A DNA stretch of 64,000 nt, taken from the NCBI GenBank assembly GCA_039096225.1, contig JBBPEB010000006.1, positions 924,501 to 988,500 of the forward strand, in the 5' to 3' direction. The first letter of the stretch is position 1; each line of letters begins with the position of its first letter. Of this stretch, positions 9,679 through 15,541 are shown one piece after another. The DNA comes from Blastocystis sp. Blastoise. Taxonomy: Eukaryota > Sar > Bigyra > Opalinata > Blastocystidae. The notes below the pieces were generated by a model that was not told the DNA's origin, did no database searches, and saw only the letters and a list, made by a program, of their open reading frames with translations. A program made the position numbers and the translations under genes.

Positions 9679-12600
9679 ATGTTGAGACAAGCTGCTAAGT
9701 TATCTGTTAATAATGTTAGACACTTTAATACTATAAACAGCACTTCTGTACTACGTGCAGTTGCTTCTCGCTCTTTTGCAACATCTTCTATAAGAGCTGC
9801 TATCGATGGTAATGAAGCTGCTGCTCGTTCTGCTTATCTTGCTGCTGATACTGCTATGATTTTCCCTATCACTCCTTCTTCTCCTATGGGTGAACATTGT
9901 GATGCTTGGGCTACTGCTGGAAAGAAAAACCTTTTCAACGAAACAGTTTCTGTTCATGAACTTCAATCTGAAGCTGGTGCTATTGGTTCTCTTCATGGTG
10001 CTTTAATTGGTGGTCTTCTTGGTACTACTTTTTCATCTTCTCAAGGTTTACTTCTGATGTACCCAAATATGTATGTATCATACAAAATCTATATCTACAT
10101 ATCGTTAAACTTATATATTATTGATTTATATATGAATATAGGCTGAAAATTGCTGGTGAACTCTTACCTGCTGTTATTCATGTTGCTAGTAGATCCGTCA
10201 CTAAAGTAGGTGGTTGTTTATATGGTGACCACTCTGATGTCATGACTATGAGAAATGTATTTTTTAAATACCTATATATAGATTTATTAACATTTAAATA
10301 TAATAATATACGTTATTTATTGATTCTATATTTTAGACTGGATTTGCTTTCCTTTCTTCTCATAATGTCCAAGAAGCTCATGATCTTGCTATGGTTTCAC
10401 ATATTGCTGCGTATATATTGAAGTTTTATATATATATTTATAAATTAGTATACTAATATTTTGATTCTAATTATTTATTCTCTATAGTATTAATTCCAGT
10501 ATTCCTTTCCTTCATTTCTTTGATGGTTTTAGAGTTTCTCATAATGTATCTTCCATTGAACTTCTTCCTGAAGACAAAGTACGTACTATATTCCCTTATG
10601 AAAAGGCTCTTTATCATAAGAATCGTGGTTTAAATCCTACTCATCCTAATCATACTGGTATGATTCAAGGAGGAGATATGTGGATGCAAGCTAATCAAGC
10701 TGCTCAACCTTTCTATGATGCTGTTCCTAAACATGTTCAAAATGCTATGGATGCTGTTGCTTCTATTTCGGGTCGTCAATATCATTTATATGATTATGTT
10801 GGTGCTAAGGATGCTGAACGTGTCATTATTCTTATGGGTTCTGGTGCTCAAACTGCCGAAGAAACTGTTAATTATTTGAATAAGATGGGTGAAAAGGTTG
10901 GTGTTATTAAAGTACATCTCTTCAGACCTGTTTCCAGTGAATATTTCATGAAAGCTCTTCCTGCTTCTTGTAAGAAGGTTGCTGTCTTAGATAGAGTTCT
11001 TGAAGAATCTGCTATTGGTGGTCCTTTGTATATATCTATTCTTATTATATTATTATTTATTATTATTATTATTTTTTTTTAATTTTTTAAATTCAACATT
11101 ATTTTTATTAATTAATTACTTCCTCTAGATATCAAGATGTTGTTGGTATTATGAACGATGTTGAAAAGGATATTAAGGTTGTTGGTGGTGCCTATGGTGT
11201 TGGTGGTAAGGAATTTACTCCTTCTATGATCAAGGCTGTCTTTGATAACTTAAATCTCTCTAAACCTAAGAATAAATTTACTGTTGGTATTAATGATGAT
11301 GTTTGTCATTCTTCTCTTCCTCTTGGTCCCAACCTTGATACTCTTCCTTCTTCTACTAAACAATGTATTCTTTATGGTCTTGGTTCTGATGGTACTGTTG
11401 GTGCTTCTCAAGAAGCTATTAAACTTATTTCTGAGAATACTACACTTAATGCTCAAGGATACTTTGTCTTTGATGCTCATAAATCTGGTGGTTTAACTGT
11501 ATCTCATCTTAGATTTGGTCCTGAAAAGATTACTGCTGAATATGGTATTCAACACGCTGATTATATTGGTTGTCATTTATCTTCTTATGTTCATAAGTAC
11601 GACCTTTTAAAGAATATCAAACAAGGTGGTACCTTTGTTCTTAATGCTCCTTGGAAGACTGTTGAAGAACTTAATGCTAATCTTCCTAATAATCTTAAGA
11701 AGACCATTGCTGAAAAACACTTAAAATTCTATACTATTGATGCTACTAAGGTTGCTCAAGAAGTTGGTCTTAGACAACGTATTAATATGGTTATGCAAGC
11801 TGTTTTCTTCAAATTATCTAATGTTCTTCCTCAAGAAAAAGCTTCTGATCTTTTAGCTGCTAATATTAAGAAACGATATTACAAGAAAGGACAATCTGTT
11901 ATTGATATGAACATTAAGGCTATGCAAGAAGCTGGTGATCGTTTAGTTGAAATCACTTATCCTGAATCTTGGGCTTCTCTTGATAAGAAACCTCTTCGTG
12001 TTTTCCCTTCTTCTGTACCTGAATATTACAAAGATATCATGTATCCTACTCTTCTTCTCGAAGGTGATGATCTTCCCGTTTCCAAGATGATCCCTGGTGG
12101 TAGACATGTTTCTGAAACATCTAAATATGAGAAGAGAGGATTTGCTAATATTGTTCCTATTTGGAATAGTGAGACTTGTACTCAATGTAATACTTGTTCT
12201 ATCATGTGTCCTCATTCCGTCATTCGTCCTTTCCTTCTTGATTCTAATGAAGTAAAGAATGCTCCTAAGACTTTACAACATATTAATGCTATGGGTGATG
12301 AATTTGAAGGTCTTCAATATAGTCTTCAAGCTTCTGTTCTTGATTGTACTGGTTGTGAAGTATGTGCTAATGCTTGTCCTACTAAATCTCTTACTATGAC
12401 TTCTCTTTCTGAAGTATCTGATAGAGAAAGCTCTCAATGGGATTACTTAATGACCATTAAGAACAAGGGTAACCTTACTGATAAATATACTGTAAGAGGA
12501 TCTCAATTCCAAGCTCCTATGACTGAATTTAATGGTGCTTGTGCTGGCTGTGGTGAACCTCAATATGTTAAATTACTTACTCAATTATTAGGTGATCGTC

Positions 12601-15541
12601 TTGTTATTCCTAACGCTATGGGTTGTGCTATGGTTTGCCAAGGTTTATTTGGTTCTGTTCCTTTCACTAAGAATGAATATGGTCAAGGTCCTGCTTGGGG
12701 TTGTTCTTTATTTGAAGATAATGCTGAATGGGGTCTTGGTTTACATAAGGCTCATGTTTTGAATCGTGCTAAATTAGAAACAAATATTCATAACGCTCTT
12801 AATGACCAATCTGTGAAGATGTCTCCTGAACTTAAACAAACTCTTGAATCTTGGTTAGCTAACAAACAAGATGGTGATGCTTGTAGAGATATTCATCATA
12901 CTGCTACTCGTCTTTTAGAAACAGAGAAAAATAATAGTCCTGCTCTTAAGGCTGTTTATGATTATCTTGATGTTATGCCTAAGGTCAGTACTTGGGTTCT
13001 TGGAGGTGATGGTTGGGCTTATGATATTGGTTTCGGTGGTTTAGATCATGTTCTTGCTTCTGGCCAAAATGTCAAGGTACTCGTTTTAGATACTGAAATG
13101 TATGCTAATACTGGTGGTCAAGCTTCTAAAGCTACTCAAATGGGTGCTGTTGCTAAATTTGCTGCTGGTGGTAAGCCTCTTATGAAGAAAGATCTTGGTA
13201 AGATTGCTATGGGTTACAAGAACGTTTATGTAGCTTCTATTGCTATTGGTGCTGATATGAAACAAACTGTAAAGGCTTTATCTGAAGCTGATTCCTATGA
13301 TGGTCCCGCTATCGTTTTAGCTTATACTCCTTGTCAACAACATGGTTATCCTTCTAATCTTGGTATGTCTAAATTAGTTGATGTCACTAAACAAGCTGTT
13401 CAAACTGGTTACTGGCCTCTTTATAGATATGATCCTCGTAGAGCTACTGAAGGTAAGAATCCCTTCCAACTTGATTTCAAGAAGGTTAAAGGTGATGTTA
13501 AGGCTTATTTAGCTAATCAAAACAGATATCAAATTTTAATGAGAAACAATCCTGAAGTTGCTAAGAAGCTTCAAGAACAATTAGAAACTGAATTACGTTC
13601 AAGACATGAAGAAAGACTTCGTATGGCTATGACTGATAAAGAACTTCTTAAATATTTAGATAAGAGTAACAAACCTGCTGCTAAGAAGTATATATATATA
13701 TAATTTTTTTTTCTTTAGTTTTCCTATATTGTATATATATTTATTTATTATTCTTTTATAGACCTTCTGGTCCTTCTGCTACTAAGCCTACTGCTCCTCT
13801 TGAGACTGAACAAACTAATGCTTTATCTAGAGATATGTCTCAATGTATTGATTGTAAAGCCTGTGAAATGGCTTGTAAGAATGGTCCTGGATGTATTTTA
13901 TTTGTTATTATTATTTTATTATTATTATTATTTTATTATTATTATTATTTTATTTTTATTATTATTTTATTATTATTATTTTATTTTTATTATTATTTTA
14001 TTTTTATTATTATTTTATTTTTATTATTATTTTATTTTTATTATTTCTTTAAAAATATTTATCTTATAAATATCTATATAGGGTTTGAATATTCTTCGTG
14101 ATACTCCCTTCCAAGAAGGTCCTCCCGTACTTCCTGTGAATGGCCTTCCTCTTAAGGATACTAAATGTATTTCATGTGGACAATGTGCTGTTTCTTGTGG
14201 TACTGGTGCTATTGTTGAGAATAGTCATATTGAGAAAGTTAAGGCTGCTATGAAGGCTGGTAAGACTGTTGTTATTCAAACTGCTCCTGCTACACGTGTT
14301 GCTATTGCTGAAGAATTTGATGAACCTGCTGGTACTATTGGTACTAAGAAGATGGTCGGTGGATTAAAGAAATTAGGATTTAATTATGTTTTCGATACTA
14401 ATTGGGGTGCTGATTTAACTATTATGGAAGAAGGTACTGAATTATTAAATAGACTTGCTAACAAGAGTACTTCTAAATTCCCTATGTTCACTTCTTGTTG
14501 TCCTGGTTGGGTTAATCTTGTAGAAAAGGTATATCCTGAATTTATTCCTAATCTCTCTTCTTGTCGTTCTCCTCATATGATGTTAGGAGCTACTGTCAAA
14601 TCTTATTGGGCTCAAAAGAATAATCTTAAGAAGGAGAATGTATATGTTGTATCTTTAATGCCTTGTACTGCTAAGAAAGATGAAATTGAAAGAAGTCAAA
14701 TGTGGGATGGTGGTGAACATTGCGTTGATGCTGTTTTAACTACTCGTGAATTAGGTACTATGCTTAAGGAAGCTGGTGTTAAGAAATGGAGTGATCTTCA
14801 AGAAGCTGAGTTTGATAATCCTTTAGGTTCTTCTAGTGGTGCTGGTGATATATTTGGATCTTCAGGTGGTGTTATGGAAGCTGCTTTAAGAACTGCTTAT
14901 GAAGTGTCTACTGGAAAGAAATTAGATAAAGTCGATTTTAAGGCTGCTAGAGGTCTTGAAGGTGTAAAAGAATTCTCTGTTGATATGAATGGAAATGAAG
15001 TCAAATGTGCTGTTGTCCATTCTAAGAATATTCATGGTTTCTTAGATAAAGTCAAGAAGGGTGAAGTATATATTTGATATTTATTATTATATTATTATAA
15101 TTATATTCTCTTATTATATATAATATATATATATATATTTTTTTTCTCATAATAAATTTATTAAATTATAATGTTTAATATTAATATAGGCTCAATATGA
15201 TTTTGTTGAAGTAATGGCATGCCCTGGTGGTTGTATTAATGGAGGTGGTCAACCTAGAAGCAGAGATAAGAAGGCTGTTACTAAGAGAATGGAAGCTATT
15301 TATGAAATCGATAGTGGTAAGAAGATCAGAAAGTCTCATGAAAATCCTGATATTCAAGTATGTCTTGTTTATTTATTATTTTTTTTTATTAATATAATAT
15401 GATAATATATTGATGATGGATTCTTATTTTATTATTCTATAGACTATTTATAAGGAATTCTTTGAAAAACCCAATAGTCACAAAGCTCATGATCTTCTCC
15501 ATACTACCTACAAACAACAACCCATATCTCCTTTTGCTTAA
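9679..15541 (+). CDS. PFO fused to [FeFe]-hydrogenase, organelle presequence
   Basis: Nine exons: 9679-10070, 10142-10256, 10337-10410, 10488-11027, 11129-13687, 13762-~13903, 14082-15065, 15190-15357, 15443-15541; about 1690 residues. The first ~1215 residues form a complete PFO (presequence [25 protein letters not shown] near 724, CTGCEVC near 779, CAGCGE near 844, GDGWAYDIG near 1001). Without a stop the frame crosses an intron into a Pro/Ala/Lys linker, then two C-x2-C-x2-C-x3-C clusters ([22 protein letters not shown]) and the three H-cluster motifs TSCCPGW, MPCTAKK and MACPGGC. The protein should couple pyruvate oxidation to proton reduction. The exon 6/7 join keeps frame only with a weak GTTATT donor; GTATTT at 13893 would shift it. 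The fusion itself is well supported: exon 5 has no usable stop, and the exon 5-6 join is canonical. Confidence 0.9.
13688..14081 (+). other. Two introns bridging the PFO and hydrogenase parts
   Basis: Intron 5 (13688-13761) is GTATAT...TTATAG and joins AA|A (Lys) in frame. Intron 6 (about 13904-14081) is a (TTATT)n-rich tract ending CTATATAG. Between them exon 6 carries the linker and the first hydrogenase iron-sulphur motif, so this short exon is what makes the fusion. Confidence 0.7.

Follow-up and report, generated by a model that had tools for sequence, protein, structure and literature searches.

A predicted fusion of pyruvate:ferredoxin oxidoreductase with [FeFe]-hydrogenase in Blastocystis sp. 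Blastoise

Whether electrons pass from pyruvate:ferredoxin oxidoreductase (PFO) to hydrogenase in Blastocystis has been an open question since 2008 (PMC2428068, PMC5608401; statements about published work refer throughout to the available parts of the cited papers). A gene in the stramenopile Blastocystis sp. Blastoise bears directly on this question: does it encode both enzymes in one polypeptide, and would such a protein make hydrogen from pyruvate? The gene lies in the window analyzed here, a stretch of 64,000 nucleotides (contig C14, positions 924501-988500) from a genome of 33.3 Mb in 34 contigs. Its nine spliced exons yield a protein of 1690 residues (185.06 kDa) with zero internal stops, which is identical at every letter to the NCBI entry 'hypothetical protein WA158_003231 [Blastocystis sp. 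Blastoise]'. An earlier sequence-only reading had described a stop-free PFO that runs through a frame-restoring GT-AG intron and a linker into a hydrogenase; both the nine-exon splice model and the NCBI protein agree with this description. One reading frame thus holds both modules, as expected of a natural PFO-hydrogenase fusion, with intron 6 as its soft spot. Judging from these features, the gene probably encodes a single PFO-hydrogenase polypeptide of the mitochondrion-related organelle, in which electrons would be passed within the protein to the H-cluster. The features of the gene are as follows (window coordinates).

9679..15541, plus strand: fused PFO-hydrogenase gene, ATG to TAA, 9 exons, 1690 residues (spliced translation)
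9679..9795, plus strand: targeting-like N-terminal extension, residues 1-39, R/S/A/T-rich; PFOR homology begins at residue 41
9679..13687, plus strand: PFO part, residues 1-1227, exons 1-5; aligns to PFOR 6cin over residues 41-1206
9679-10070, 10142-10256, 10337-10410, 10488-11027, 11129-13687, plus strand: PFO exons 1-5 (splice model)
13688..13761, plus strand: intron 5, 74 nt, GT-AG, without ATG; retention gives a PFO ending in KKYIYI
13763..13834, plus strand: linker, 24 residues (1228-1251), Pro/Ala/Lys/Thr (coding scores; alignment with hydrogenase-flavodoxins)
13844..13876, plus strand: first [4Fe-4S] motif, 11 residues, 1255-1265 (alignment, conserved-column check)
13904..14081, plus strand: intron 6, 178 nt, AT-rich repeat, atypical GTT donor; the GTA-type donor 13893 breaks the frame
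14082..15541, plus strand: hydrogenase catalytic part, residues 1275-1690, exons 7-9 (PF02906 and PF02256)
14082-15065, 15190-15357, 15443-15541, plus strand: hydrogenase exons 7-9 (splice model)
14166..14198, plus strand: second [4Fe-4S] motif, 11 residues, 1303-1313 (conserved-column check)
14490..14510, plus strand: H-cluster motif TSCCPGW, residues 1411-1417 (conserved-column check)
14658..14678, plus strand: H-cluster motif MPCTAKK, residues 1467-1473 (conserved-column check)
15214..15234, plus strand: H-cluster motif MACPGGC, residues 1611-1617 (conserved-column check)

Two enzymes in one reading frame

Pfam matched PF02906 (E 1.1e-92), PF01855 (E 6e-67), PF01558, PF17147 and PF02256 to the protein, well over cut-off. 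The domains of the PFO part follow one another in the order POR_N, PFOR_II, POR, EKR, Fer4 and thiamine pyrophosphate (TPP)-binding, and residues 41-1206 match the solved PFOR 6cin over full length. The cluster and TPP motifs of the PFO family are present, the choice of which of their residues are catalytic being our assumption. Comparison of 12 other PFOs gave 363 invariant columns, of which the PFO part keeps 334 and the unfused Blastoise paralogues keep 329, 329 and 338. HydA chains of known structure, 8a6t among them, align with residues 1248-1683. This part contains the three H-cluster motifs and the small-subunit domain of [FeFe]-hydrogenases, and by its kinship with proteins so named it is assigned to [FeFe]-hydrogenase group A. 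Across 42 other hydrogenases, 55 columns show no variation, and 54 of them are kept here; the sole lost column is the Pro after the second [4Fe-4S] motif (42/42 others), here replaced by Gly. The two ferredoxin-type clusters and the three H-cluster motifs noted in the sequence-only reading were all recovered, the latter beginning at residues 1411, 1467 and 1611. PF00258 and the reductase domain, which define PNO, are absent according to Pfam. The protein has no acidic residue before residue 43, and its R/S/A/T-rich start has the composition that a mitochondrial targeting sequence would be expected to show; the organelle targeting suggested earlier is consistent with this composition.

The junction between the modules and intron 6

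Blastocystis is known for chimeric gene models, and the junction of the fused gene was therefore put to the test. In subtype 7 (ST7), potentially 15% of genes get their stop codon by polyadenylation, and such stops, which are common in Blastocystis, yield chimeric gene models with false introns (PMC5608401, PMC4159000). Intron 5 (GTATATAT...TTTTATAG) has a donor and an acceptor of the same kind as those of the other introns, the exon phases agree across it, and its removal restores the frame; left unspliced, it stops the PFO four residues on. The 24 codons of the linker, from the PFO tail to M1252, gave a coding versus noncoding log-likelihood ratio of +50.8 bits. Comparison segments of the same length, drawn from the model's own training stretches, reached at most -2.1 when noncoding (263 segments); the 120 coding segments scored +33.3 at the median and never below +1.6. 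An independent model, with codons from the PNO gene on contig C3 and noncoding sequence from other loci, gave the linker +39.3 bits; its held-out segments had a maximum of -11.0 for 265 noncoding ones, and a median of +23.9 with a minimum of -1.2 for 96 coding ones. Both models scored the other reading frames of the linker region negative.

An in-frame ATG is absent from intron 5 and from exon 6 before M1252, where the single ATG, at 13818, is out of frame. The sequence-only reading had named an own ATG for a separate hydrogenase as the case that would speak for two proteins, and this part of the gene holds none in frame. The end of the linker aligns with ALHRDMSRCIDC of standalone hydrogenase-flavodoxins, ALSRDM standing against ALHRDM before the first cluster. 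This indicates that hydrogenase coding begins upstream of M1252, the first ATG usable on its own. Because the linker appears to be coding, no usable ATG lies upstream, the ALSRDM/ALHRDM match holds and the exon phases agree, it seems quite probable that the fused gene makes one polypeptide.

Several observations weigh against a single working enzyme, some at this junction and others at intron 6 and in the maturation of the hydrogenase. At the junction, the model could be chimeric, although this appears unlikely: the PFO transcript would end in or near intron 5, with a stop codon either encoded in the intron or made by polyadenylation, and the hydrogenase would be a separate gene starting just downstream. 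If polyadenylation took place within intron 5, the result would be a normal-looking PFO that ends in KKYIYI at the encoded stop. About 96% of ST7 polyadenylation sites lie within two substitutions of the motif TGTTTGTT (PMC4159000), and intron 5 holds two-mismatch copies of it (13704-13742), at chance density (background 12.8 per kb and strand). A one-mismatch copy lies at 13899, in the annotated exon 6/intron 6 boundary region; about one is expected by chance in the scanned stretch, the density over the window being 1.56 per kb and strand. In addition, the NCBI models appear to be automatic, and another Blastoise PFO model is without an N-terminal exon that is visible in the DNA. The sister locus on contig C24 is also unfused: residue 1222 of its plus-strand PFO (PFO-b) is followed by an ordinary TAA stop. 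A chimeric model is harder to reconcile with the linker, which scores as coding, matches a hydrogenase N-terminal extension and has no in-frame ATG ahead. The stretch 13400-13898 holds no copy of TGTTTGTT with one mismatch or fewer. Moreover, a hydrogenase made on its own would have M1252 as its start, three residues ahead of the first cluster cysteine, and would be without a targeting signal, the alternative being an extra upstream exon. All four PFO-type genes examined have a motif within one mismatch in the 260 nt past the stop codon. If poly(A) were added within intron 5, however, the stop would already be encoded and a weak motif would be enough, and the motif scan thus leaves the two-gene explanation standing.

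Intron 6 sits between the two hydrogenase cluster motifs, and the frame is kept only with a GTT donor. Introns were mapped in three Blastoise PFO genes, 15 in all; GTA donors are found in 14 of them, and intron 6 alone has GTT. Its donor at 13904 reads GTTATT; eleven bases upstream, the GTA-type donor 13893 reads GTATTTTA, and its use breaks the frame and brings a stop six residues on, giving a truncated product. A first splice model with donor 13893 was ruled out by this broken frame. When GT or GC donors were paired with AG acceptors, several combinations preserved the frame across intron 6, but just one of them, donor 13904 joined to the usual acceptor 14081, leaves intact both the first cluster motif and the conserved beginning of exon 7. 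The resulting in-frame product of exons 6 and 7 carries a five-column insertion (GCILF) that none of the 11 aligned relatives shares. This leaves three readings: use of the GTT donor, a small assembly error, or loss of the hydrogenase part. In the last case the fusion would be real and its hydrogenase no longer used: with the stronger donor 13893, splicing would give a PFO with a short tail while the rest decays. The donor comparison and the GCILF insertion would fit such a decay, which we nevertheless regard as quite unlikely: exons 7-9 remain open over 416 residues with nearly all invariant columns kept, which is unexpected for a long-decayed domain and suggests that the hydrogenase part is in use, and an assembly error of a single base where exons 6 and 7 meet would look alike.

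Electron path, maturation and hydrogen

PFO puts electrons singly on three [4Fe-4S] clusters and hands them to ferredoxin, and a hydrogenase with two [4Fe-4S] clusters receives electrons via a ferredoxin-like front domain. In the fused protein, the PFO part would oxidize pyruvate with coenzyme A (CoA) to acetyl-CoA and CO2. The electrons would then move along the PFO [4Fe-4S] clusters and directly to the ferredoxin-like front domain of the tethered hydrogenase, either in the same chain or in the partner chain of the PFO dimer, and from the front domain to the H-cluster; soluble ferredoxin or flavodoxin would not be needed. The PFO core extends to residue 1206 and the first hydrogenase cysteine is residue 1255; the roughly 48 residues separating them may allow the front domain to take ferredoxin's place at the PFO outlet. 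As a speculation, intron 5 might serve as a switch, its retention giving a plain PFO. For Blastocystis, a flavodoxin domain has been proposed as the electron carrier from PFO to hydrogenase (Stechmann 2008, PMC2428068). In the Blastoise genome, one match to [2Fe-2S] ferredoxin was found, and flavodoxin domains occur in the PNO, in a gene on contig C32 and in one further place.

Family search and protein search of the Blastoise genome found one complete [FeFe]-hydrogenase, the domain of the fused protein. The contig C32 gene (locus L019, 3322-8811) has the architecture of a CysJ-fused hydrogenase with degenerate H-cluster motifs: TSSCPAT for TSCCPGW, FTSCVAAK for MPCTAKK, and YACPEGC, and its TIMEEG stretch reads LYIQKV. 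Judged by the CpI structure, these changes presumably remove the proton-relay cysteine, and the gene product is probably not an H2 enzyme. A third hydrogenase-family match, on contig C4, is Nar1-like by eye. The PNO gene lies on the minus strand of contig C3 (locus L014, 1975-7544); by eye, its N-terminus, MVDIKYKYQ, is without a targeting-like extension.

A six-frame search of the genome gave zero candidates for HydE and HydG, although in this intron-rich assembly a gene that is split many times or left unassembled could escape it, and four weak matches for HydF, which scored 24 to 44 bits where the cut-off is 325.55. Weak HydF matches below the cut-off likewise occur in 13 of 14 control genomes. 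The radical-SAM family, used as a control, gave five matches in the same genome, four of them over the cut-off, which indicates that the method is able to detect such genes. The HydEFG maturation set expected for a working H2-making [FeFe]-hydrogenase was thus not detected in Blastoise by this search. According to the available text on Blastocystis subtype 1 (ST1), that organism is likewise without HydF and HydG, attempts to detect PFO and hydrogenase activity in its organelle were unsuccessful, and the authors suggested an electron acceptor other than protons (PMC5608401). Because the maturases were not found and the ST1 organelle was negative, the sequence-only reading is at its weakest in the H2 step. 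Its continuous PFO-linker-hydrogenase coding sequence with a targeting-like start is supported, while the self-contained pyruvate-to-H2 machine that it proposed is weakened by the maturase search, the ST1 result and the atypical donor of intron 6.

A fusion protein may exist whose hydrogenase domain is without a standard H-cluster and delivers the pyruvate electrons to a non-proton acceptor. This explanation, to which we give tentative but real weight, is compatible with one polypeptide and overlaps the best explanation, and it is favored by the maturase search and by the equal proposal made for ST1. The conserved columns argue against it, their one exception being the Pro beside the second F-cluster. 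Once freed from proton handling, a domain might also have diverged at its H-cluster, which is the case for the contig C32 gene. The Giardia and Entamoeba hydrogenases are reported to function without HydEFG maturases. H2 is plausible as an end product of the predicted fused enzyme. The full proposal, in which a single chain would convert pyruvate and CoA to acetyl-CoA, CO2 and H2 with its carriers built in, without soluble ferredoxin or known maturase genes and with an H-cluster built by another route, is possible but less likely than not.

Origin, relatives and neighboring features

The head-to-head neighbor of the fused gene is an unfused PFO.

5378..9259, minus strand: PFO-a, 1221 residues, ordinary stop; exons 9259-8975, 8875-8772, 8654-5378

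Contig C24 bears the same head-to-head PFO pair as C14. In a 28-row tree, the PFO part of the fused protein was sister to PFO-b of contig C24 (support 100), and in a 43-row tree the hydrogenase domain was sister to four hydrogenase-flavodoxins (P0121-P0124; SH-aLRT 99). These four are inferred to be Blastocystis proteins because their architecture was called unique when it was found in Blastocystis (PMC2428068). The PFO-a copies of C14 and C24 are 98.4% identical, and the fused PFO and PFO-b 79.4%. The fused PFO and PFO-a are 95-96% identical at alignment columns 500-700 and 62-71% identical at columns 0-400; together with the near identity of the PFO-a copies, this pattern looks like gene conversion. 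A hydrogenase was not found on contig C24, nor in the 5.6 kb past PFO-b, and no flavodoxin relic was found in the 4.5 kb downstream of the fused gene or at the C24 locus. In the simplest history that we infer, the PFO pair was duplicated, one plus-strand copy gained a hydrogenase, and the hydrogenase lost its flavodoxin. An older fusion that was lost at C24 is a possible alternative.

The nearest known system is the hydrogenase-flavodoxin of Blastocystis. The fused hydrogenase domain is 63-65% identical to P0121-P0124, has the same two-cluster front, and shares the postulated role of taking electrons from PFO (PMC2428068); the fused protein, however, has no C-terminal flavodoxin and carries a whole PFO at its N-terminus instead. 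Like PNO, it extends PFO C-terminally by a redox partner, but the partner in PNO is a flavodoxin/FAD/NADP reductase rather than a hydrogenase. The CysJ-fused hydrogenases of Stygiella, Paratrimastix, Carpediemonas and Pelomyxa and the NuoE/NuoF-fused hydrogenase of Nyctotherus are also natural fusions with an electron-supplying module. Their partners are of the NAD(P)H-oxidizing type, unlike the PFO of the fused protein. Two further proteins (P0286 and P0290), of more than 1500 residues, combine PFO with a C-terminal redox partner, which according to Pfam is a GltD-like NAD(P)-binding module; one is from EukProt, with the label m51a1 (probably Mastigamoeba), and the other from a metagenome. 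Engineered circuits of PFOR, ferredoxin and hydrogenase likewise direct pyruvate electrons to the hydrogenase by physical tethering, but they are synthetic and join the hydrogenase to ferredoxin, not to PFOR. In E. coli, such tethering can raise pathway output, and in vivo activity depends on linker length (PMC2847965).

The joint-domain search proposed with the sequence-only reading was carried out by blastp of both parts. Among the 120 listed of 805 long hydrogenase matches and the 120 listed PFO matches, the fused protein (P0001) alone bears both parts, and the PFO part had no match among the 120 listed shorter hydrogenase matches; 8000 matches were scored in each of the shorter-hydrogenase and PFO searches. 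The occurrence in Blastoise only is a lower bound, as length-limited protein searches miss intron-split fusions in metagenome contigs. None of 80 bacterial hydrogenase loci had a PFO in the same frame (the best 80 of at least 367 relatives, from one bacterial branch and not a census), and no hydrogenase relatives were found in viral contigs. In one locus of Lactococcus reticulitermitis (L102, 6001-12108), a 588-residue hydrogenase frame lies near a separate 1180-residue PFO frame. The sequence-only reading knew of no description of such a fusion. None was found either in the literature on Blastoise, on the Blastocystis hydrogenase and on PFO-hydrogenase fusions, a coverage outside of which most subscription journals and preprints fall. 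The fusions named in the available parts of this literature are PNO and the CysJ-, NuoEF- and flavodoxin-fused hydrogenases (PMC5608401, PMC2428068, PMC2847965, PMC8887013, PMC10711303, PMC10703272, PMC6993867). As far as seen, protists often join hydrogenase or PFO to redox partners, but apparently not to each other elsewhere. A gene that joins both enzymes is strong circumstantial evidence for a redox partnership of PFO and hydrogenase in Blastocystis, and the fused protein offers a single test object both for this partnership and for hydrogenase maturation without HydEFG. If the fusion is true, it would be a natural counterpart of the tethering built by bioengineers for hydrogen production.

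Other features of the window were also observed. Directly after the fused gene, at 15852-15940, lies a tRNA gene whose anticodon arm apparently contains an intron; ARAGORN assigns no amino acid to it, and by eye it resembles tRNA-Tyr. A 308-codon open frame at 3248-4174 is, by eye, hAT-type transposase-like and has no Pfam match. Very long AAT/ATT-type microsatellites (16866-17460, 33267-33983 and others) occur between and within predicted reading frames.

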